64,000 nucleotides of DNA from Streptomyces sp. TS71-3 (lineage in GTDB: Bacteria > Actinomycetota > Actinomycetes > Streptomycetales > Streptomycetaceae). The notes under the pieces are model-generated. The model ran no database searches, was not told the DNA's origin, and saw only the letters and a list, made by a program, of their open reading frames with translations. Below are positions 20,070-30,497 of this stretch, one piece after another (position 1 is the stretch's first letter; the number at the start of each line of letters is the position of its first letter). The translations under genes and the position numbers were made by a program. The DNA is taken from assembly GCF_018327685.1 (NCBI RefSeq), contig NZ_BNEL01000001.1, positions 3,472,001 through 3,536,000 on the forward strand. The letters run 5' to 3'.

Positions 20070-20705
20070 TCAGATCGCGTTGATCGGGGCCGACGCGCGC
20101 TCCACGCGCGCAAGCGCACGGAGCAAGGCCGCCTGCCCATGCCGCCGCGCGGCAAGCCTCGCCAGCAGGACGAGCACGGGGTCGAACGCCGAGGCGGGCA
20201 ACTCGGGCGTGGGGAGCCGGACGCTGACGGCGAGGTCGTCCAGGTGCACGGCCAGCTCCAGCAGGCGGGTGGCGAGGAAGTCGTCGAGGTGCAGCGCCCA
20301 GCCGGTCTGCGGCATGAAGAACACCTCGTCACCGGTGCGGTCAGCCAGCAGGGCGCGCTGCTCGGCGAGTGCCGCGCGGGTGCGCTCGTGCAGGCAGGCC
20401 GGGCCCTCGGCCGCGATGCCCTCGCCCTTGGCGCGGATACCGGAGTTGGCGTCACCGTCCAGCGGCGCGCCGAGCCACTCGGCGCGCGCGTAGTGCTCCA
20501 GCAGCGTGATCGGCGGCCCGCCCGACGGCGCCGCCTCAAGCGCCTCGGTGACGCTGAGCACCTGGTACGCGAGGTGCCCGGCAAGAGCGCCGACGCTCAT
20601 ACCCTCCAGCGCGCTCCGCTCGCCCCAGGCCGCCGCGACCTCGGCGCTTCCCAGCTGCCCCACGGCCGCCTCCGCCGCGGCCGGGTATCCGGCGAGCGCA
20701 CTCAT
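20070..20705 (-). CDS. DinB/maleylpyruvate isomerase N-terminal-type (mycothiol-dependent) protein
   Basis: The product is 211 aa from an ATG with GGAGGGG upstream. The helical bundle pattern includes GHLAY near residue 44 and LATRLLELAVHLDDLAVS near residue 145. These give two of the three His metal ligands typical of the DinB/MDMPI fold. Actinobacterial members can use mycothiol or bacillithiol in isomerase or detoxification reactions, but for most the substrate is not known. No signal peptide is present. It is divergent from the Ser/Thr kinase, sharing a 221-bp promoter region, and convergent with the hexosaminidase. Confidence 0.78.
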   Translation of the reverse strand: MSALAGYPAAAEAAVGQLGSAEVAAAWGERSALEGMSVGALAGHLAYQVLSVTEALEAAPSGGPPITLLEHYARAEWLGAPLDGDANSGIRAKGEGIAAEGPACLHERTRAALAEQRALLADRTGDEVFFMPQTGWALHLDDFLATRLLELAVHLDDLAVSVRLPTPELPASAFDPVLVLLARLAARRHGQAALLRALARVERASAPINAI

Positions 20706-20926
20706 ACGGTTCCCCTCCGTACCGTCGGCCGCGTGACGTGTTCAGCAGGTCCATGGCCCTGCGCGCGGATCCCACAACGGTCCCGGCGCCGCGGGTTACT
20801 TGCCCACGCCGGGCTCGGTCGCGTGCGGTACGGTTGCGCCGCTGCGAACGCACACGGTCTCGTGTCCAGGAAGGCCCGTCCGTCTTCCGAGTGAGCCGCC
20901 AGCGCGAGCGAGTCGGGACTGTAGTG

Positions 20927-22720
20927 ATGACCAATGAGGATACCGTGCCGGAAGAGTCGGGCCGCGAGCGTGTGATCGCCGGCCGCTACCACCTGCTGTC
21001 GCCCCTCGGTGAGGGCGGTATGGGAACCGTGTGGCGCGCCCGCGACGAGGTGTTGCACCGCGAGGTCGCCGTCAAGGAGGTCCGGGCGCCAAGTGGAATG
21101 GCGGCGCCCGATGTCGAGCGGATGTACCGGCGGCTGGAGCGTGAGGCATGGGCCGCGGCCCGGGTGTCGCACCGGAACGTCGTGACCGTCCATGACGTGG
21201 TCATGGAGGAGAGCCGCCCGTGGATCGTCATGGAGCTGGTTCGCGGGCAGTCCCTCGCCGATCTGCTCAAGGTCGCGGGCCCGCTCTCCCCGAAACGCAC
21301 CGCGTCCATCGGCATCGAGGTTCTGGCCGCACTCCGCTCCGCCCATGAGGCCGGGGTGCTGCACCGTGACGTGAAGCCGGCCAACGTGCTGATGGCCAAG
21401 GACGGCCGGGTGGTGCTCACCGATTTCGGCATAGCCGTGGTCGAGGGCAGCTCGGCGTTGACCATGCCCGGCGAGGTGGTCGGGTCGCCCGAGTTCCTGG
21501 CGCCGGAGCGGGCGTTGGGAAAGACGCCAGGGCCGGCATCGGACCTGTGGTCGCTCGGCGTGTTGCTGTACGCGGCGGTTGAGGGAACCTCGCCGTTCCG
21601 CAACAGCACACCGCTCAGCACCCTGCGTGCCATCGTGGATGTGGAGCTGCCGCCGCCGAGCCAGGCCGGCGCCCTGGCCCCGGTCATCGAAGGGCTACTC
21701 CGCAAGGACCCGGAGGAACGCCTCGGCGCCGAGCAGGCGGAACAGGGCCTGCGGCTGGTGGGCGAGGGGACATCCCTCCACACGGCGACCGCGGCACAGG
21801 ACTCCCTCTCGGCGACTGCCCTGGCAGATTCCGCCACGCAGGTGTCGGCCACGGATGCGGCCACGCAGGTGTCGGCCACGGATGCCGCCACGCAGGTGTC
21901 GGCCACGGATGCCGCCACGCAGGTGTCTCCCCCCGACTCCGTGACGCAGGCCGCGGTCGCGGATCCCGCGCCGGAGCCCGCCGCGGAGCCGTCCGCCGCG
22001 ACTGCGGTGACGCAGACCGCGGACACCCACCCCGCGGCCCCGACGACGGCCACGCAGACCGCGGACACCCACCCCACGGCACCGGCGGCGACGGCCGCGC
22101 AGGCCCCGGATCCCGGGCCGGTCGCCGCCGCAGCACCCGCGTCCCCGCCGTCCCCGGCCTCCCCTCGGCGCAAGCGGCGCACCACCTTCGTGGCCGCGGG
22201 CGCGACCCTGCTCGCTCTGGTGCTGACCGGGGCGGGCTTCGGGCTGCACGCGCTCATCAGCGACGGAGACGGAGGCCGGCAGGACGCCGGCGGTTCGGCT
22301 GCGGGCGCCGGTGCGCTCTCGGTCGCCTCGGGCGGCGGTGCACGGGACAGCATCCAGGTGGGCGTGAACGTCACGGGTTCGCGGACGACGTACGCGGGAC
22401 CGTGTCCGTCCCCGAACGAGCAGGCGCCCACCTTCACGGCGACCTTCTCGGTGGACCGGATCCCGGCCCAGCTCTCCTACCGGTGGGTGACCGCGGACGG
22501 CGACCTGATCGCCGGGGGCTGGAGGACGCTCGCGTTCCCCGAGGGCGGAGACGACGTCGAGCAGGAAACGGTGCGCCTGACCACGTGGGCGCGCGGCGGG
22601 ACGTTCGAGAGCGGGATCGGCGTGGAGCTCAAGGCGCCCCTCCAGGGCAAGTCCAACTTCGTGCCCGTGTCGCTGACGTGCGAGACGGGCACGGGCGAGG
22701 GCACGTCCTCCGGCCAGTGA
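20927..22720 (+). CDS. Membrane Ser/Thr protein kinase (PknB-type) with Thr-Gln repeat linker
   Basis: The product is 597 aa from the ATG at 20927. The frame is open further upstream, but the kinase domain starts 20 residues after this Met, as usual. Kinase motifs: glycine loop GEGGMGTVW (29-36), Lys50 in VAVKEV, catalytic HRDVKPANVL (146-155), DFG (166-168), activation segment with SALTMPGEVVGSPEFLAPE. A ~120-residue Pro/Ala/Thr linker follows. It contains four ATQV motifs in 9-residue repeats (302-333) and two TQTADTHP motifs. One membrane helix lies at about 420-443. The exported C-terminal domain (~150 aa) is of unknown type. The gene 46 bp downstream encodes an FHA domain, a phosphothreonine reader, so the two probably form a signalling pair. 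Confidence 0.93.
   Translation: MTNEDTVPEESGRERVIAGRYHLLSPLGEGGMGTVWRARDEVLHREVAVKEVRAPSGMAAPDVERMYRRLEREAWAAARVSHRNVVTVHDVVMEESRPWIVMELVRGQSLADLLKVAGPLSPKRTASIGIEVLAALRSAHEAGVLHRDVKPANVLMAKDGRVVLTDFGIAVVEGSSALTMPGEVVGSPEFLAPERALGKTPGPASDLWSLGVLLYAAVEGTSPFRNSTPLSTLRAIVDVELPPPSQAGALAPVIEGLLRKDPEERLGAEQAEQGLRLVGEGTSLHTATAAQDSLSATALADSATQVSATDAATQVSATDAATQVSATDAATQVSPPDSVTQAAVADPAPEPAAEPSAATAVTQTADTHPAAPTTATQTADTHPTAPAATAAQAPDPGPVAAAAPASPPSPASPRRKRRTTFVAAGATLLALVLTGAGFGLHALISDGDGGRQDAGGSAAGAGALSVASGGGARDSIQVGVNVTGSRTTYAGPCPSPNEQAPTFTATFSVDRIPAQLSYRWVTADGDLIAGGWRTLAFPEGGDDVEQETVRLTTWARGGTFESGIGVELKAPLQGKSNFVPVSLTCETGTGEGTSSGQ
21833..21927 (+). repeat. 27-bp tandem repeat encoding (V)SATDAATQ in the kinase linker
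   Basis: Units at 21833-21859, 21860-21886 and 21887-21913 are nearly identical, and a fourth is partial (21914-21927). Each begins GCCACGCAGGTGTCGGCC. The reading frame is kept. Confidence 0.92.
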
Positions 22721-22766
22721 CGGATCGGGCGATCTTCGCGTTTGGTGTCGTACGCAAGGAGTATGA

Positions 22767-24686
22767 GTGTCATCGGTCATCATCGGGCAGAACGGCCCCT
22801 TCTCGGGCCAAAGCGTGGTTCTTGATTCCGCTCCTCTGACGTTCGGTCGCAAGAGCGACAACGGTGTTGTGATCGTCAGCCAGAAGGCCTCACGTCTGCA
22901 CGCGGAAATCGTGGAGGAGGACGCCGGCTTCGTCCTTTACGACCGCAACAGCCGCAACGGCACCTTCGTCAACGACGAGCGCATCACGCGGCATGTGCTG
23001 CGCCCCGACGACTGCATACGGATCGGCGACGAGACCTTCCTCTACGCGTCGCAGGACGCCATGGAGACGGTCATGGACCTCTCCCACCTCGACGAGGCTC
23101 CCCGCGGGGCGGCCTCCGACGACCCCACCGTGCTGCACGTCACGGTCACCGGCGGAGGTCCGGTGGGCCTCGCCTTCGCGCTGACGTTGGAGAACATGCT
23201 GCGCGAGCGTGTTTCCGTCACGATCCACGACGGGCGGTGGACGGAGGACGGCTCCACCGTCGTCTGGAAGAACAAGGCCCAGGGGAACAACCGCCGCCAG
23301 CAGGTCGTGACCGTCCAGAGCCGCCAGTACCTCGCGCTGCCCGAGGAACTGCAGTCGGCGCTGTTCGGCGGGGGCGAGTACGCGGAGATGTGGCCCGTCG
23401 GGCCCGACTCCGTGGACGGACAGCCGCCCCGCAACATCCGGATCGCCTACATCGAGGACCGGCTGCTCGAACTGGCGAACGACAACGCCAGGATCCACCT
23501 GGTGCCGAAGCGGTTCGACCCGGCGGAGCAGCAGGAGCAGGCCGCGCAGTCACATGTCCTCGTGATCTGCGAGGGCGGATCGTCCCGCACGCGGGAGCAC
23601 TACAGCGACCGGTTCGGCGCGGCCGACACCACGGTCTACTCCCTGGACGGCGAGCACCTTCAGGACGTGGTGCTCGGGCTCAAGGTGAAGTCCGCGCTCT
23701 CCGACCAGATGAGCGTCCTGCTGACCGTCTCGCAGAACAGGTTCCTCCTCAACTCGCTGAGGGGGGAGGGCTTCCTGAACATGCGGCTCACGCGCGAGGA
23801 GGCCCGCAACGTGATCGGCATCGACCCGGTCCGCCAGGTCTTCGAGCAGTGCATCGCCTCCCGCCCCTGCCTGATGACCCGTGACGAGGAGGAGAACGAG
23901 TTCCGCTGTCCCACGCACGGAACCCTCTTCCTTCCTGCCCTGCTCCAGAGTTCACCCCTGTGGAAGCGGATCCGGCAGGGGCTCAAGCTGTTCGGGGTGG
24001 CCGAGCCCGACCTCACCGCGGTCACGTCGTTCCGGCTGGACATGGTGCAGCGCCCGCGGTTCACCGCGCAGCTCAGCCGTCCCACCCCGACGAGCCCCGG
24101 AACGTACGGCTTCCTGCTGGGCGACGCGGCCAACTCCATGCACTTCTGGCCGGGGCGCGGCCTGAACAGCGGTCTTGCCTCCGCCCTTTCGCTCGCCCGC
24201 TCCCTCAGCCGCGCGTGGAACGGGAAGCCGCTGCGTGATGCCGACTTCATCCGGCACGAGGCCGCGATGTCCATGCTCCAGTACCGGCACAAGAGCCGGG
24301 CCTGGAACGCCATGGTCACCACGGACGAGCAGGGCGCCACCCGCGCCATCAAGGACATCATCGCGCGCAGCGTGGATCCGGAGGCCGGCGACCTCCCCGC
24401 GTCGCAGGACGAATGCCTCGACGCGCTGCTGGAGCGCATGGGCGCGATACGCGACCGCCTCGCGTCCCGCCTGCCCGGTATGCCCACCGACGAGGAGCTG
24501 CGGGAGCACCTCTCGAAGCTGGACCTGGCCACGCTCCACACGCTCCAGGAGAGCGGCGCCTGGGACACCCTGATCGTCGGCGGCGAGGAGGCCGACATCG
24601 ACCTCTTCTACCAGTCGGACTCTCCGGTCTACGTCCCCCGCCCCGCCGCCGCGGAGGGCATTCCGTCGGCTCCGGTACCGCTGTGA
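22767..24686 (+). CDS. FHA domain fused to a FAD-dependent monooxygenase-like domain
   Basis: The product is 639 aa from a GTG with AAGGAG five bases upstream. The N-terminal FHA domain (about 1-95) has all signature residues: GR at 27-28, SRLH at 42-45, NSRNG at 61-65. After a short linker a class A flavoprotein fold starts with VTGGGPVGLAFALTLE (about 127-142), the ADP-binding loop of FAD. The second FAD motif is LLGDAANSMHFWPGRGLNSG (about 450-469). It resembles p-hydroxybenzoate hydroxylase/kynurenine monooxygenase/MICAL-type enzymes. The last ~130 residues form a helical tail ending in a region with LQESGAWDTLIVGG. Substrate is unknown. The kinase just upstream suggests that a phosphothreonine signal recruits or controls the flavoenzyme. 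I do not recall this domain pair as a described system. Confidence 0.85.
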   Translation: MSSVIIGQNGPFSGQSVVLDSAPLTFGRKSDNGVVIVSQKASRLHAEIVEEDAGFVLYDRNSRNGTFVNDERITRHVLRPDDCIRIGDETFLYASQDAMETVMDLSHLDEAPRGAASDDPTVLHVTVTGGGPVGLAFALTLENMLRERVSVTIHDGRWTEDGSTVVWKNKAQGNNRRQQVVTVQSRQYLALPEELQSALFGGGEYAEMWPVGPDSVDGQPPRNIRIAYIEDRLLELANDNARIHLVPKRFDPAEQQEQAAQSHVLVICEGGSSRTREHYSDRFGAADTTVYSLDGEHLQDVVLGLKVKSALSDQMSVLLTVSQNRFLLNSLRGEGFLNMRLTREEARNVIGIDPVRQVFEQCIASRPCLMTRDEEENEFRCPTHGTLFLPALLQSSPLWKRIRQGLKLFGVAEPDLTAVTSFRLDMVQRPRFTAQLSRPTPTSPGTYGFLLGDAANSMHFWPGRGLNSGLASALSLARSLSRAWNGKPLRDADFIRHEAAMSMLQYRHKSRAWNAMVTTDEQGATRAIKDIIARSVDPEAGDLPASQDECLDALLERMGAIRDRLASRLPGMPTDEELREHLSKLDLATLHTLQESGAWDTLIVGGEEADIDLFYQSDSPVYVPRPAAAEGIPSAPVPL

Positions 24687-24878: not shown

Positions 24879-26654
24879 TCACGCGATCGGGTTCTTCAGC
24901 GTCCCCACGAGCTGGAGCGCACCCGACGGATCCGCCAGGTCCACCATCTGGCGGTTGTCGCGGAGCTGGAGCCGGTTCAGGCAGGACAGCGCGAACTCGG
25001 GGGCGAAGATGTCGTAGCGGCGGAAGGCGGCGGCGAGTTCGGGGTGGGCGCGCTGGTAGGCGTGGACGCAGTCGGCGACCGCCAGCCAGAACGTGTCCTC
25101 CTCGATCAGGCCCTCGGTGGCCAGCTGCGCGGAGAGGAAGCGGAAGAAGCAGTCGAAGACGTCGGTGAAGATCGACAGCAGCCGCTGGTCCTCGGGGACG
25201 TCCGCCTTGATCCGCGCGACCTGAGGCGGGAGCTCCGCGTCCGGGTCCAGGACGGCGATCTCCTCGGCGATGTCCTTGAAGACGGCACGCCGCACGCTGC
25301 CCGCCTCGTCCAGGACCAGGATGACGTTCTCGCCGTGCGGCATGAACACCAGGCCGTACGCGTAGAAGCAGTGCAGCAGCGGCACCAGGTAGGCGTCCAG
25401 GTAGCGGCGCAGCCACTCGGCAGGGCGCAGGCCGGACCGCTCGATGAGCGCGGCGGCCAGGGACGCGCCGGCGCCGTCGGTGTGCAGCAGCGAGGCCATG
25501 GTGGCGAGCCGCTCACCGTCCTTCAGGCCCGGCACCGGCGACTCCCGCCACAGTGCCGCCAGCATCTTGCGGTAGGGCGAGTAGCGGTCCGTGGCGGCCT
25601 CGTACTCCAGGTGCCGGTAGCCGACGGCGGCCCGTTCGCGCAGCACGGTGAGGCCGGCGGCGCGCAGCACCTCGTCGGAGCGGACCAGCTCCGCGAGCCA
25701 GTCGTTGATGGCGGGGGTGGCTTCCATGTACGCGGCGGACAGGCCCCGCATGAAGCCCATGTTCAGCACCGACAGCGCGGTCTTGACGTAGTGCTTGGCG
25801 GGGTCGGTGGTGTTGAAGAAGGTGCGGATCGACTGCTGGGCGAGGTAGGAGTCGTCGCCCTCGCCGAGGCAGACAAGACGCCGGGTGGCTATCTCCGCGG
25901 CGAAGGTGACGGTGAGCTTGTTCCACCACTGCCAGGGGTGGACGGGTATCAGGAGGTAGTCGTCCGGGTCGAGGCCCTGGCCGCGGAGCGCCGCGGAGAA
26001 GCGGATCAGGGTGGCCTCGCCCAGCTCGGCGCGGAGCAGCGCCTCGTATCCGACGCCGGCTCCCGCGTGGAACGCGGCGCGGTCCCGGTGCGCGGCGACC
26101 CAGACCAGCCGGACGGGGCTCGCGGTCTCGGGTGCGTAGGAGAGGTACTCGTGGACGCCGAAGCCGAGCCGGCCGTTGTTGGCGACGAAGCACGGGTGGC
26201 CCTCGGTCATCCCGGTCTCGACGGCCTGGAAGTCCGCCCCCGCCAGCTCGGCCGACGAGACGCCGGGCTTGGCCAGCTTGTAGCAGGTGCTCGCGAGCGT
26301 CGAGGAGATCTCCTCCAGGTAGACCGGCAGGATGTCGTCGCTCAGGCCCAGGCTGCCGCGCAGCTCGATGCAGAAGTCCAGCGCGGCGAGCGGCAGCTCG
26401 GTGCCGTCCGCGGTGCGCCGCCGGGATATGGAGGCCGCGTCGACGGCCCAGTGGTCCAGCGCGAACAGCCGCGCACGGAACCGGTAGACCGTGCCGCCGT
26501 CGTCGCTGAACACCTCGTACTGCCCGTCTCCGCAGGCGGCGGGGGTGAGCAGCCGTTCGTGGCCGAACTCCGCGAGGGCCTTGCGGACGAGCAGGCGGTT
26601 CGCCTCCTCCCAGCGCTCCGGGGCCAGGTGGGCGACGGCGTCGGACAGGCTCAT
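24879..26654 (-). CDS. desD: Desferrioxamine synthetase, NRPS-independent siderophore (IucA/IucC) type
   Basis: The product is 591 aa. The IucA/IucC family is evident from HPCFVANNGRLGFGVHEYLSYAPE written here as its two motifs EGHPCFVANNGRLGF and IPVHPWQWWNKL, and from the C-terminal FhuF-like ferric reductase-type segment with HCFYAYGLVFMPHGEN. DesD activates succinylated N-hydroxycadaverine units with ATP and joins and cyclises them to desferrioxamine E/B. It is the last gene of desABCD. Its ATG overlaps the desC stop as TCATGA. A bidirectional terminator follows. Confidence 0.97.
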   Translation of the reverse strand: MSLSDAVAHLAPERWEEANRLLVRKALAEFGHERLLTPAACGDGQYEVFSDDGGTVYRFRARLFALDHWAVDAASISRRRTADGTELPLAALDFCIELRGSLGLSDDILPVYLEEISSTLASTCYKLAKPGVSSAELAGADFQAVETGMTEGHPCFVANNGRLGFGVHEYLSYAPETASPVRLVWVAAHRDRAAFHAGAGVGYEALLRAELGEATLIRFSAALRGQGLDPDDYLLIPVHPWQWWNKLTVTFAAEIATRRLVCLGEGDDSYLAQQSIRTFFNTTDPAKHYVKTALSVLNMGFMRGLSAAYMEATPAINDWLAELVRSDEVLRAAGLTVLRERAAVGYRHLEYEAATDRYSPYRKMLAALWRESPVPGLKDGERLATMASLLHTDGAGASLAAALIERSGLRPAEWLRRYLDAYLVPLLHCFYAYGLVFMPHGENVILVLDEAGSVRRAVFKDIAEEIAVLDPDAELPPQVARIKADVPEDQRLLSIFTDVFDCFFRFLSAQLATEGLIEEDTFWLAVADCVHAYQRAHPELAAAFRRYDIFAPEFALSCLNRLQLRDNRQMVDLADPSGALQLVGTLKNPIA

Positions 26655-27250
26655 GAGACGGCTCCTCTGGCTGCGGCGAACTGCTCGCGGGTGCAGAAGC
26701 TGAGCAGCGCGGTCTTCTCCGGCTTGGTGATCTCGCGGTCGGGAACGAAGCCGACGGCGCGGTTGAGCGCGTGGACGGCGGTGTTGCGGACATCGGGTTC
26801 CACGACGACGCGCCGGGCCGCCGGGTCGGCGAACAGGAACTCCATCACGGTGGTGAGCACGGCCAGGGTGAAGCCCGGGAGGCGGACGTCACCCGGCGCG
26901 GTCAGGAAATGCATGCCCACATCGCCGGGCCGGGCCTCGTACAGACCCTCCAGCTCCACGCGGGCCGGGTCGTAGCGCTCCACGAGGAACGCGGGCGCGC
27001 CGCGGTGCAGGCCGAGGAACGCGTCGTGGTGCGGGTGGGCGGCTACCGCCATGTAGGCGCGCTCCACCTCCTCCAGCCTGGCGTCCCCCATCAGCCAGAA
27101 CACCGCCTTCGGATGGGTCACCCAGCGGTGCAGCAGCTCCGCGTCGGTCGTCGGGTCGAGGTCGCGCAGGGCGAACACGCCGAGGGCGGGGTCGCCGCGG
27201 GTGAAGAGGGGGCCGGGGCCGCCGCGCCCGGCGTCGTCGTGGTCGGTCAT
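26651..27250 (-). CDS. desC: Desferrioxamine acyltransferase (GNAT, acyl-CoA:N-hydroxycadaverine)
   Basis: The product is 199 aa. It is a single GNAT domain of the siderophore acyltransferase type (RhbD/IucB-like): [19 protein letters not shown] at the start, [30 protein letters not shown], and VGMHFLTAP near the acetyl-CoA site. DesC transfers succinyl or acetyl from CoA to N-hydroxycadaverine. Its ATG overlaps the desB stop by four bases and its stop overlaps the desD start, so translation is coupled. Confidence 0.95.
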
Positions 27251-28740
27251 GAGGGGCCGCTTTCCGGTGAGAGGTCCGGGGAACCGTCGGGGGCGGCGAA
27301 GTCCTGGAACGCGATGGACTTCTCCACCGGGTAGACCTCGCGGCCCAGCAGCTCCCGGATGATGTACGCGTTGCGGTAGGCGCCCATGCCCAGGTCGGGG
27401 CTGGTGACGCTGTGGGTGTGCACGCCGGCGTTCTGGAGGAAGATGCCGCCTCCGGTGGTGTCGACGGCGTAGTTGCGGGCCACGTCGAAGCGGCCCCGGC
27501 CGTCCCAGCGGATCCGGTCGTGCACCGGTCGCAGGAACTCGGGCGTGCGGTACCGGTAGCCCGTGGCGAGGATCAGGCCCTCGGTGTCCAGGGCGAAGTC
27601 ACGTTCCTGCTCCTCGTGGCGCAGGCCCAGGGTGTACGTGCCGGAAGGGGCGTCGTAGGCGGCCGTGCGCAGCGAGGTGTTGGTGAGCAGCCGGGTGGGC
27701 ACGGGGCCCGCCAGGCTCTTCTGGTAGAGCAGGTCGAAGATGGCGTCGATCAGGGCCGAGTCGATGCCCTTGAAGAGGCCCTTCTGCTGCTGCTCCAGGC
27801 GGTAGCGGGTGTCCTCCGGCAGCGCGTGGAAGTAGTCGGCGTACTCCGGGGACGTCATCTCCAGCGTCAGCTTGGTGTACTCCAGCGGGAAGAACCGCGG
27901 GGAGCGGGTCACCCAGTCGAGCCGGTAGCCGTGTGTGTCGATCTCGCCGAGCAGGTCGTAGTAGATCTCGGCGGCGGACTGGCCGCTGCCGACCAGGGTG
28001 ATCGACTTCTTCGCGGTCAGCCGGGACCGGTTGGCCAGGTAGCGGGAGTTGTGGATCGCGTCGCCGTCCAGGCCCTCGCACGCCTTCGGGACGTACGGCG
28101 GCGTGCCGGTGCCGAGCACCAGGCGCGGGGCGCGGTAGGTGACGCCGGTGGAGGTGCGCGCGGTGTAGTGGCCGCCGCCGTCCGTGCCGTCGTGGCCGGC
28201 TGCGCTGCCGCCTGTCCCCGGGGTGTACGTCACCTCCGTGACCGTCGTGTCGAAGCGGACGCTGGAGAGCTGCGCCGCGGCCCAGCGGCAGTACGCGTTG
28301 TACTCGGTGCGCAGCGGATAGAAGTTCTCGCGGATGTAGAAGGCGTACAGCCGGCCCGACTGCTTGAGGTAGTTCAGGAACGAGTACGGGGAGGTGGGGT
28401 CCGCCAGCGTCACCAGGTCCGACAGGAACGGGGTCTGGAGGTGGGCACCGTCCAGGAACATCCCCGAGTGCCAGTCGAAGTCGGGCTTGGCCTCCAGGAA
28501 GACGCCGTTCAGCTCGTCGAGGGGCTCGGTCAGGCAGGCGAGGCCCAGATTGAAGGGGCCGAGGCCGATGCCGAGGAAGTCGGCGTCCACGACGCGGCCG
28601 GAATCCGGGTAGGAACCGGAGCTCGCGGGGGAGGCGGTGGCCGCTCGGGGGCCCGCGTCCGCCGGGGAGGCGGCGGTCGCGCGGGGGCCGGTGCCCACGT
28701 GGGAATCGGTGTCCGCGGCGTGGTCAGCAGGCGTGGTCAA
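27247..28740 (-). CDS. desB: Cadaverine N-monooxygenase (FAD/NADPH)
   Basis: The product is 497 aa. The start is a TTG at 28738-28740 with GGGAGAG five bases upstream. It overlaps the desA stop by 17 bp. A ~45-residue Ala/Ser/Pro-rich extension precedes the conserved domain, which starts [17 protein letters not shown] (FAD). NADPH binding is seen in [18 protein letters not shown], and [15 protein letters not shown] is the ATG motif. DesB hydroxylates cadaverine to N-hydroxycadaverine. If the extension is not translated, a GTG at V16 or just before VDADF could be used, but those lack the ribosome site. Confidence 0.95.
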
Positions 28741-30178
28741 GGTTCTCTCCCAGGTACTGCTCGGCGTGGCCGGCGATCAGGTCGAGGACGGCCGCGATGT
28801 CGCCGGCCGTCGTGGCGGGGTTGAGCAGCGTGAACTTGAGGTAGTGGCGGCTGTCCACCGTGGTGCCCGCGACGACCGCGTCGCCCGAGGAGAACAGCGC
28901 CTTGCGCGCGTGCAGGTTGGCGCGGTCGATGCCGGCCTGGTCGGTGGGGGCCGCGGGGATGTAGCGGAAGACGAGCGTGGAGAGCTGGGGCCGCACCACG
29001 ACGTCGAAGCGCGGGTCGGCCGCGAGCATCCGCCAGCCCTCCTCGGCCAGCGCGCACACCTCGTCGAAGAGGGCGCCCACCGCGTCCGCGCCCATGATGC
29101 GCAGCGTCATCCAGAGCTTGAGCGCGTCGAAGCGGCGGGTGGTCTGGAGCGACTTGTCCACCTGGTTGGGGATGCGCTCCTCGGCCGCCCGCCGGGGGTT
29201 GAGGTAGTCCGCGTGGTAGGTGGCGTGCCGGAGCACGGCCGAGTCCCTGACCAGCAGGGCGCTGGAGCTCACCGGCTGGAAGAACGACTTGTGGTAGTCG
29301 ACGGTGACCGAGTCGGCCAGTTCGATGCCGTCCAGCAGGTGCCGGCCCGACGGGGACGCCAGCAGGCCGCAGCCGTACGCCGCGTCGACGTGCAGCCAGG
29401 TGCCGTGCTCGGCGCACAGCCCGGCGATCTCCTCCAGCGGGTCGATGGAGCCGAAGTCGGTGGTGCCCGCGGTGCCGACCACCGCCATCGGCACCAGGTC
29501 CTCGCGGGTGCAGCGGGCCAGCTCCTGGGCGAGTGCGAGGGTGCTCATCCGCTTGTCCCGGTCGCAGGGGATGGCGATCACCGCGTCGGGGCCGAGGCCG
29601 AGGAGTTTCGCGGACTTGCGCACGCTGAAGTGGCTGACCTCGGAGGTGAGGATGCGCAGCCGGGCCGGGGTGCCGGCGAGGCCGCAGACCTTGGCCTCCT
29701 CGCGGGCGAGCAGCAGCGCCTGGAGGTTGGACTGCGTGCCGCCGCTGGTGAAGACCCCGTCCGCGGCCGGCCCGAGGCCGAGCCGCCCCGCCGTCCAGTC
29801 GATCAGCCGGCGCTCGATGAGGGTGCCGCCCGCTGACTGGTCCCAGGTGTCCAACGAGGAGTTCACCGCCGCGAGCACGGCCTCGCCGAGCACGGCGGGG
29901 ATGACGACGGGGCAGTTGAGGTGGGCCAGGTAGCGGGGGTGGTGGAACCAGACCGCGTCGCGGAGGTAGACCTCCTCCAGCTCGTCGAGCGCGGCGGTGG
30001 TGTCGCCCAGGGGACGGTCGAGGTCGATGGCGTCGAAGCGAGGGGCGAGTTCGTCGGCGGTGACACCGGTGAACGGCCGGTCGACGGCGGTGAGTCTCGC
30101 GGCCACGCGCTCGATTCCCTCGGTTACGGACTGGAGGTAGCGATCCGTCGTCCCGTCGTTGAGCAGGTGCGAGCGCAT
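28724..30178 (-). CDS. desA: Lysine decarboxylase (PLP), first gene of the desferrioxamine operon
   Basis: The product is 484 aa from the ATG at 30176-30178 with GGAGG upstream. The longer frame to 30247 would run through the iron box and is rejected. It is a group II PLP decarboxylase: [32 protein letters not shown] for the PLP-ring Asp, and [22 protein letters not shown] with the Schiff-base Lys. DesA makes cadaverine from lysine. The iron box at 30207 lies 29 bp upstream, so the operon is repressed by DmdR1 when iron is plentiful. The operon order A-B-C-D is standard. Confidence 0.97.
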
Positions 30179-30206
30179 GGGGAGTCCTCCGGTGTGAGTC
30201 GGGAAC

Positions 30207-30225
30207 TTAGGTGAGGCTAACCTAA
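30207..30225 (-). promoter_or_regulatory. Iron box (DmdR1/IdeR operator) of desABCD
   Basis: TTAGGTGAGGCTAACCTAA is an interrupted 19-bp palindrome matching the Streptomyces iron box TTAGGTTAGGCTCACCTAA closely. It is positioned just upstream of the desA ribosome site. Confidence 0.93.
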
Positions 30226-30497
30226 GTAAAATGTCGGCTCGCAGCACGCCGCGCCCGCGGCGCCGCGGCAGGGTATGGGGGTGTTGCCGGCGGGCGGGTT
30301 CTGAAAGGGGGCCGTGGGCCGGGCCCGGAACGGCCGGACCTTGGCGGGGGCAGAGCCCTGGGGTGAGGTCTGGGGGCGGGGCACGGGGCCGGCGCGAGGT
30401 GTCCCGGAGGGGGCGCCCCTGGCGCGGGGCGGCCGAGGGTGGGGCCGTGAGGCCCGGCGCTAGCTCACCGCGCCCTCCGCAGTCACCCTGCCTCCGC
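30226..30497. other. Gap between desA promoter and desE end
   Basis: The stretch is G-rich with no gene pattern and no copy of the dispersed element. The desA promoter must be close to the iron box at its left edge. Confidence 0.6.

Follow-up and report, generated by a model that had tools for sequence, protein, structure and literature searches.

The window analysed here, a 64,000-nucleotide stretch of Streptomyces DNA, carries a gene for a membrane Ser/Thr kinase followed by a gene, here called FHA-FAD, whose product joins an FHA domain to a class A flavin monooxygenase fold. In one of the two clades of the FHA-FAD family (clade A), the two genes are a co-inherited pair, with trees that match beyond host ancestry. 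With confidence and doubt in equal measure, we propose that they form a two-gene accessory signalling module, in which an FHA-gated flavoenzyme is switched via a near-invariant threonine, Thr101, located just after the FHA domain.

The kinase/FHA-FAD locus

The features of the locus are as follows:

20070..20705, minus strand: MDMPI_N-domain gene, in the same extra segment as the pair (Pfam)
20927..22720, plus strand: membrane Ser/Thr (Hanks-type) kinase gene, 597 aa (Pfam, tblastn)
20987..21742, plus strand: kinase catalytic domain, residues 21-272, with HRDVKPAN and DFG motifs (Pfam PF00069; motifs from the translation)
21713..22180, plus strand: Thr-rich cytoplasmic linker, limits approximate, overlapping the end of the Pfam kinase match (sequence, composition)
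21833-21928, plus strand: tandem ATQVSATDA units inside the kinase linker (sequence)
22181..22258, plus strand: predicted single transmembrane segment of the kinase, approximate (hydrophobic stretch in the translation)
22337..22720, plus strand: kinase extracytoplasmic domain, residues 471-597, predicted 8-strand beta fold (model, Foldseek)
22767..24686, plus strand: FHA-FAD gene, 639 aa, an FHA domain and a class A flavin monooxygenase fold in one protein
22767..23051, plus strand: FHA domain, residues 1-95 of FHA-FAD (Pfam, PDB sequence matches, Foldseek)
23067..23069, plus strand: Thr101 codon, within E-T-V-M-D of the linker that follows the FHA, candidate site of a phospho-switch (conservation; model confidence)
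23151..23171, plus strand: GGGPVGL dinucleotide-binding motif of FHA-FAD (invariant in 95 aligned relatives)
24120..24167, plus strand: GDAANSMHFWPGRGLN flavin (GD) motif of FHA-FAD (13/16 positions invariant in 95)

Both open reading frames are present at these coordinates, separated by 46 bp (22721-22766), and the order given in the earlier note, a kinase and then an FHA-flavin fusion, is confirmed by Pfam and structure prediction. A 660-aa form of the kinase, starting with GTG at 20738, is probably an over-extension, since the alignments with close relatives begin at the first residue of the 597-aa form. The pair sits in an extra segment, and the two genes that flank it adjoin each other in 17/29 relatives. 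The MDMPI_N gene probably lies outside the pair because it is absent beside other copies: it was found within 1.5 kb of desD in none of 29 relatives, and its family has no member at the other 71 FHA-FAD loci.

The kinase domain (Pfam Pkinase, E 7e-48, residues 21-272), the HRD and DFG motifs, one transmembrane segment (by hydrophobicity only) and the extracytoplasmic domain identify a Hanks-type membrane kinase, which scores below the cut-off of the NCBIfam model for PASTA kinases (Stk1/PknB equivalog; 252.1 bits vs 450). The ectodomain was modelled with a pLDDT of 85, and gave one Foldseek match with E below 0.001, the rest being weak. It is present in 179/295 genomes of the genus, and kinase Pfam domains occur in all 73 proteins found with this region. 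A second genomic copy of the kinase was at first linked to the S. coelicolor SCO4775-4779 kinase cluster (described in excerpts of PMC4416010), because kinase-sized genes stand there in a row; this link was dropped because the three neighbouring gene families (one member each) do not read as kinases, judged from their first 80 residues and long tree branches.

The Thr-rich linker is real, as the earlier note had it, but Thr-containing linkers are also found in kinase paralogues outside the pair. The linkers of 29 co-directional partners hold a median of 23 threonines, compared with 9 for the 11 divergent partners and 8 for the 11 paralogues that lie at another locus. No single conserved docking motif was found in the partner-kinase linkers, where PT[VI] occurs in 11/29 and 0/11. 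The linker is a candidate region for autophosphorylation and, putatively, for FHA docking.

Conservation of the FHA domain and flavin fold

Residue conservation was assessed in an alignment of 95 of the 240 homologues listed. The FHA domain (PF00498, E 8e-16, residues 25-87) has the phosphothreonine-binding residues announced in the earlier note, the pocket positions G27, R28, S42, R43, H45, N64, G65 and T66 (GR, SRxH, NGT) being invariant in 95/95. Among the matches listed from PDB sequence, profile and Foldseek comparisons, it most resembles the FHAs of GarA, OdhI and Rv1747, with an Rv1747 FHA structure as the best single-sequence PDB match. The protein falls below the cut-off of the OdhI equivalog model (41.7 bits vs 200), its FHA lies at the very N-terminus, and there is no N-terminal ETTS.

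By Pfam alone the FAD part is weak (PF01494, E 1.5e-5, covering only the GD-motif stretch). In the predicted structure (mean pLDDT 77.7), residues ~120-615 adopt a class A flavoprotein monooxygenase (PHBH-type) fold, and all three motifs of this class, GxGxxG, DG and GD, are found. Invariant in the 95 relatives are GGGPVGL (129-135), R157, G270, G452, D453, A454, A455, N456, H459, F460, W461, P462, G463, R464, G465 and N467; position 155 (D155) is D or E in 95/95, and the acid of the DG motif is E in 83 and D in 12. Since these motif residues are conserved, the flavin-binding positions have not been lost, a loss that the earlier note had named as a concern, and the protein is predicted to bind FAD. 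The structural matches listed for the flavin part are small-molecule hydroxylases (kynurenine, pyridine, phenol, ubiquinone, tetracycline/rifampicin hydroxylases and similar).

A near-invariant threonine follows the FHA domain

T101 is kept in 94/95 relatives, flanked by E100 in 89/95, V/I/L/M102 in 95/95 and D104 in 78/95, the last being absent in 17/95. The linker that holds it (residues 98-118) is modelled with pLDDT below 50. T-x-x-D is found within residues 89-118 at 58/70 loci, vs 8.9 percent of random 30-residue stretches from the flavin part of the same proteins. This near-invariance suggests a GarA/OdhI-like switch, in which T101 would be phosphorylated; the conservation could also come from structural constraint.

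Distribution and co-inheritance of the pair

The FHA-FAD family is accessory, occurring in 45/295 Streptomyces genomes, and forms two branches, clade A (46 loci) and clade B (26 loci). Partial matches (L021, L022) and duplicates of named loci (L052, L095, L104, L066, L086) were left out of the locus counts, and the kinase tree was also computed without the contig-edge fragments L012, L013 and L015. The FHA-FAD alignment comprises 70 loci, L017 and L094 being outside it and therefore placed in clades by identity only. Searches at E <= 1e-3 returned 1110 and 1135 proteins; some of these may have only the FHA or only the flavin part, and the totals are no measure of family size. PF00498 was found in all 240 homologues listed, a top-scoring and thus biased sample, and PF01494 in fewer. 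When 296 genomes of the phylum were searched for an FHA-less flavin domain (E <= 1e-8, with up to five first-look candidates scored in each genome), only four same-genus FHA-FAD holders were found. Two FHA-less copies came to light by other routes: L017, with an intact frame, and L094, a C-terminal remnant behind a subtilase ORF.

In clade A, a kinase gene lies within 4 kb at 43/46 loci, co-directional at 31 and divergent at 12. The gap is 46-300 bp at 41 loci, 635 bp at L053, and 1349 bp with one intervening ORF at L014. At L060 and L103 the FHA is kept and the kinase neighbour is gone, the ectodomain kinase being absent from the first genome and located elsewhere in the second. At L017, the sole intact clade A copy without FHA, the upstream 6 kb contain no kinase; the contig ends about 600 bp downstream, and a kinase may lie on that side.

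In clade B, the kinase was found within 4 kb at 0/26 loci. The expectation that a kinase gene is always adjacent, by which the earlier note had proposed to test its reading, is thus false, and the pair holds as a real unit in clade A only. No ectodomain match at E <= 1e-6 was obtained in 8/12 clade B genomes in one search and in 4/14 in another, so the kinase is not required for persistence of the flavoenzyme. Of the clade B loci, L087 and L117 have a distant relative of the kinase (37 and 30 percent) at 5-7 kb. Pfam analysis of 18 neighbouring proteins from 17/26 clade B loci showed no kinase and no common partner; the neighbour families include MMPL, BTAD regulators, arabinofuranosidase, methyltransferase, aminotransferase, P450, subtilase, thermolysin and others. 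Across the family, no other gene family occurs within two genes of FHA-FAD in more than 5/72 loci.

The distances in the FHA-FAD and kinase trees are strongly correlated (r 0.912, 40 loci; best of 2000 permutations 0.199). In 29 genomes the correlation was 0.934, with a partial r of 0.905 after removing host rpoB (permutation maximum 0.252). The correlation with rpoB itself was 0.553 for FHA-FAD and 0.629 for the kinase in these genomes; at this moderate level descent is partly vertical and the history is not purely horizontal. In the kinase tree, 11 paralogues at another locus split from the partner kinases with a support of 0.998. All divergent copies belong to one FHA-FAD clade, and the divergent gene order is therefore probably a single event. 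Co-inheritance is linkage, distinct from physical interaction. The side-by-side upkeep of the two genes at varying genomic places in many Streptomyces suggests an oxidation reaction under the control of protein phosphorylation.

A proposed phosphothreonine switch and alternative readings

In the mechanism that we propose, the beta ectodomain of the kinase would sense something outside the cell, and the kinase would autophosphorylate on threonines of its disordered linker in the cytoplasm. Through its FHA, the flavoenzyme may then dock on the phosphorylated linker, and the docked kinase would phosphorylate Thr101, between the FHA and the flavin domain. Phospho-Thr101 would be captured by the FHA in cis, or in a second copy, and this capture may alter the activity, oligomer state or location of what would be a FAD-dependent hydroxylase of a small molecule, with either direction of control conceivable. 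In clade B, with FHA, usually Thr101, and no such kinase beside it, the input would come from other cellular kinases. The proposal builds on the genes and their domains, the binding and flavin residues, the co-inheritance in clade A and the near-invariance of Thr101. It has a precedent in excerpts of PMC8546545, which describe an autophosphorylated, poorly conserved, disordered kinase extension that anchors an FHA substrate, the FHA raising kinase activity on a nearby Thr about 45-fold.

Rather more tentatively, and leaning slightly against it, we consider that the kinase and FHA-FAD form a moveable module built around a phosphothreonine-gated class A flavin monooxygenase, in which phosphorylation of the flavoenzyme's own linker Thr, read by its own FHA, would switch oxidation. 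Relatives of this flavoenzyme number in the hundreds in Streptomyces and other actinomycetes (at least 240 listed).

As for physiology, the pair may be a moveable cassette for stress, for inactivation of xenobiotics or antibiotics, or for phage defence, in which the kinase would be the sensor and the flavin oxygenase the effector, a role that we find possible but doubtful, and that is compatible with the T101 switch. It would fit the patchy accessory spread, the extra segment, the lack of conserved FHA-FAD neighbours, the occurrence of FHA-FAD on seven Streptomyces plasmid records, and the presence of Tet destructases and rifampicin monooxygenase among the structural matches. However, the likeness to antibiotic enzymes is common to many other hydroxylases, all eight plasmid-collection records are predicted non-mobilizable, and descent is partly vertical. 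FHA-FAD matched no PADLOC family at E <= 1, no PHROG model and no phage record, and the PADLOC matches of the kinase (PD-T4-6) are, in our judgement, those expected of any Hanks kinase.

Somewhat less probable, and in our view unlikely, is that FHA-FAD is a general phospho-regulated enzyme served by many kinases, the adjacent one being an optional partner acquired in a single event at the base of clade A (or, alternatively, lost in a single event in clade B). In clade B the FHA residues, and usually T101, do persist with no such kinase alongside; several of its genomes lack the kinase altogether at the threshold above, and OdhI is phosphorylated by several kinases (abstract of PMC2784874). By itself, however, this reading leaves unexplained why the two genes stay together in clade A through two gene orders and a shared history.

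The earlier note had inferred that autophosphorylation of the kinase recruits the flavoenzyme to the membrane and controls oxidation of a small molecule or, as by MICAL, of a protein side chain. The version in which the phosphorylated kinase linker does no more than recruit, and a protein side chain is oxidised, we consider improbable. Recruitment is one possibility, consistent with the Thr-rich linker, richer in the co-directional partners than in the paralogues, and with the FHA pocket; it is at odds with the poor conservation of the linker motifs, next to a near-invariant T101. MICAL-like chemistry finds no support in the small-molecule hydroxylases matched; MICAL is not among the sequence and structure matches listed, an absence that excludes nothing. 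Finally, the gaps of 46 to 1349 bp and the varying orientation, by which the pair is not always one transcript, might suggest that an ordinary kinase and an unrelated biosynthetic monooxygenase lie side by side by chance, but for clade A this is contradicted by the 43/46 loci, the matched trees and the two gene orders, and we regard it as very improbable.

The phosphothreonine switch makes a sharp prediction: a single kinase, a single phosphosite (T101), a single reader domain and a single enzyme, whose flavin absorbance and NAD(P)H consumption can be monitored. The family is widespread in actinomycetes amenable to laboratory work. The distribution of the pair, both accessory and co-inherited, suggests a self-contained trait.

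Comparison with known systems

A kinase plus an FHA effector is a known arrangement, and in bacteria such pairings regulate both metabolic enzymes and transporters (excerpts of PMC3908365 and PMC8546545). For an FHA built into a flavin oxygenase, our literature searches on this architecture gave no apparent description, in line with the earlier note, which had held the architecture to be uncommon and the system possibly undescribed.

Compared with class A monooxygenases (KMO, MHPCO, UbiI, PHBH, Tet(50), RIFMO), to which its identity is about 10-18 percent, FHA-FAD has the FHA fusion and conserved stretches peculiar to its family, e.g. NRFLLN, GEGFLNMRLT and FWPGRGLN. Like MICAL, it is a flavin monooxygenase within a signalling protein, and the two presumably share an FWPxG-type motif; unlike MICAL, it is bacterial and has no calponin-homology or LIM domain in a Pfam scan.

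The PknF - Rv1747 system of M. tuberculosis, a two-gene operon according to excerpts of PMC3908365, likewise places a Hanks-type kinase gene beside a gene for an FHA-effector fusion. The Rv1747 effector is an FHA-containing ABC exporter, whereas that of FHA-FAD is a flavin oxygenase, and the pair described here is accessory and found at varying genomic places. In the PknG/PknB - GarA/OdhI system (excerpts of PMC8546545), whose FHAs rank with the closest matches listed by fold and by profile, the FHA docks on the autophosphorylated kinase and the substrate Thr lies next to the FHA, as we propose for FHA-FAD. GarA and OdhI are stand-alone regulators with an N-terminal Thr (ETTS), whereas in FHA-FAD the Thr follows the FHA on its C-terminal side, and a covalent fusion joins the FHA to the enzyme that it would control.

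The gene pair and its genomic setting

The earlier note had described a kinase ORF followed, after 46 bp, by an ORF in which an FHA domain is fused to a flavin monooxygenase, and this arrangement was confirmed by ORF and sequence checks. The features concerned are:

20927-22720, + strand: membrane Hanks-type Ser/Thr kinase (Pkinase, Pfam 7e-48)
22767-24686, + strand: FHA-FAD protein (FHA, Pfam 8e-16; FAD_binding_3 weak, 1.5e-5, C-terminal motif only)
24879-30247: ORFs that run convergently to the FHA-FAD gene and look like a desferrioxamine-type siderophore cluster, desD first (IucA/IucC by Pfam; other names read from sequence)

Neither the kinase nor the FHA-FAD protein exceeds the cut-off of any NCBIfam model. 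The kinase ectodomain is predicted to be a beta fold in the structure model, and a match search with this model returned nothing informative. The FHA-FAD protein is single-copy in its own genome, where four further matches span the FHA part only. Together with an MDMPI_N gene, the pair is flanked by a beta-N-acetylhexosaminidase gene and an IucA/IucC (Pfam) gene, which we take to be the desferrioxamine gene desD. A desD match was found in 32 relatives, and in 17 of the 29 examined the hexosaminidase gene directly abuts desD, so that the stretch bearing the pair is an added segment.

Distribution of the FHA-FAD family

With the window protein as query, the best 120 of 1110 proteins (E <= 1e-3) all contain PF00498 and cover at least 96 percent of the query, those with names being mostly Streptomyces 'FHA domain-containing protein' entries. 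A divergent relative as query gave further named members in Streptosporangium, Microbispora, Microtetraspora, Nonomuraea, Sphaerisporangium, Micromonospora, Kitasatospora and Actinacidiphila (best 120 of 1135). FHA-FAD was detected in 45 of 295 genomes of the genus sample (E <= 1e-40, including the remnant L094), in 22 of 200 genomes and 6 of 17 genera of the bacterial family sample (E <= 1e-25), and in 4 of 396 genomes of the phylum sample, all four from the genus of the window; the phylum sample is thin, since the divergent query finds members in other families. No FHA-FAD was found in phage records, and the eight records in the plasmid collection (seven Streptomyces and one Nonomuraea record of 11.85 Mb) are all predicted to be non-mobilizable. 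This accessory spread fits a self-contained trait, be it compound detoxification, defence or signalling. In a single genome, a C-terminal remnant of the family (L094:4542-5555, residue 286 onward) lies behind a subtilase ORF; the N-terminal half was looked for and not found, and this is probably a decayed copy.

Kinase adjacency and co-inheritance

We compared the neighbourhoods of 72 distinct loci, 70 of which were included in the FHA-FAD tree. Two branches are present, clade A (46 loci including the window, about 70-82 percent identity to the window FHA-FAD protein) and clade B (26 loci, 61-68 percent), the latter set apart with support 1.0 (25 loci in the tree). A relative of the window kinase lies within 4 kb of FHA-FAD in 43 of the 46 clade A loci, co-directional and upstream in 31 and divergent in 12. 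The gap measures 46-300 bp in 41 of these loci; L053 has one of 635 bp, and in L014 an ORF lies within a gap of 1349 bp. The commonest other family reaches at most 5 of 72 loci within two genes of FHA-FAD, and at most 7 in the entire fetched flanks. Among the three exceptions, L060 and L103 retain the FHA domain and have no adjoining kinase; upstream of the L060 copy is a protein-arginine deiminase gene (L060:6723-8723; PAD, Pfam E 2e-111). The third, L017:5995-7677 from Streptomyces fumigatiscleroticus, has an intact flavin domain (76 percent identical) without FHA, and no kinase in the 6 kb upstream, the contig stopping about 600 bp downstream. This double absence is one natural case that agrees with FHA-kinase coupling.

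In clade B no kinase relative was found within 4 kb of FHA-FAD (0/26), and two loci have a distant relative 5-7 kb away. An ectodomain match (E <= 1e-6) was absent from 8 of 12 clade B genomes searched; in the genus sample, where the ectodomain was detected in 179 of 295 genomes, 4 of 14 clade B genomes had no match.

Pairwise tree distances of FHA-FAD and the adjacent kinase correlate with r 0.912 over 40 loci (maximum of 2000 permutations, 0.199). With rpoB from 29 of these genomes as host control, FHA-FAD and kinase correlate at 0.934, FHA-FAD and rpoB at 0.553, and kinase and rpoB at 0.629, which leaves a partial correlation of 0.905 between FHA-FAD and kinase (permutation maximum 0.252). 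The history is therefore partly host-like, with an agreement within the pair far above the host share. Divergent gene order probably arose in one event, because the divergent FHA-FAD copies form one clade (support 0.999, together with L012 and L103) and the 11 kinases of divergent loci form another (support 1.0). The partner kinases separate (support 0.998) from 11 paralogues at another, syntenic locus conserved in other genomes of the genus (L130-L140), whose kinase domain is about 74-83 percent identical to that of the window kinase. The L141 kinase clusters with the partner kinases, and the 16 kb fetched for this locus contain no FHA-FAD.

T101 and the proposed phospho-switch

The Thr-containing linker of the partner kinases drifts in sequence and is highly variable in length, from 47 residues to a co-directional median of 156, and a P-T-V/I motif is present in 11 of the 29 co-directional linkers and in none of the 11 divergent ones. 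In the window kinase, tandem ATQVSATDA-coding repeats occupy 21833-21928 of this region.

T101, in the linker between the FHA and flavin domains, is kept in 94 of 95 aligned proteins, with E at -1 in 89, V/I/L/M at +1 in 95 and D at +3 in 78; residues 98-118 are modelled with low confidence (pLDDT <50). FHA domains commonly prefer pT-x-x-D or pT-x-x-I/L, and 58 of 70 loci have a T-x-x-D inside residues 89-118, compared with a background of 8.9 percent in random 30-residue stretches from the flavin part of the same proteins. Since T101 is near-invariant and T-x-x-D enriched, as opposed to the drifting kinase linker, we favour a GarA-like order of events, and infer binding and catalytic steps in which the FHA-FAD protein would dock onto the kinase, T101 would become phosphorylated, and the FHA domain would then capture pT101. 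Such an order would require no fixed motif in the kinase linker. It would also account for clade B, which retains the FHA domain and mostly T101 without a kinase neighbour, because there the phosphate may be supplied by other kinases.

Comparison with known systems

A kinase beside an FHA effector is established logic, as with PknF and the FHA effector Rv1747 (PMC3908365) and with PknG and GarA (PMC8546545). In the latter, a poorly conserved N-terminal extension of PknG bears the autophosphorylation sites that anchor the FHA domain of GarA/OdhI (PMC8546545), and the partner-kinase linker is likewise Thr-bearing and poorly conserved. No description of an FHA-flavin monooxygenase fusion was found in the titles and abstract openings of a literature set with few subscription papers, and its 'undescribed' status holds for the literature and terms searched. 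The flavin domain adds a new member to the class A fold, and what is new here is the FHA-flavin fusion with a kinase partner, within the known logic of a kinase and its FHA effector.
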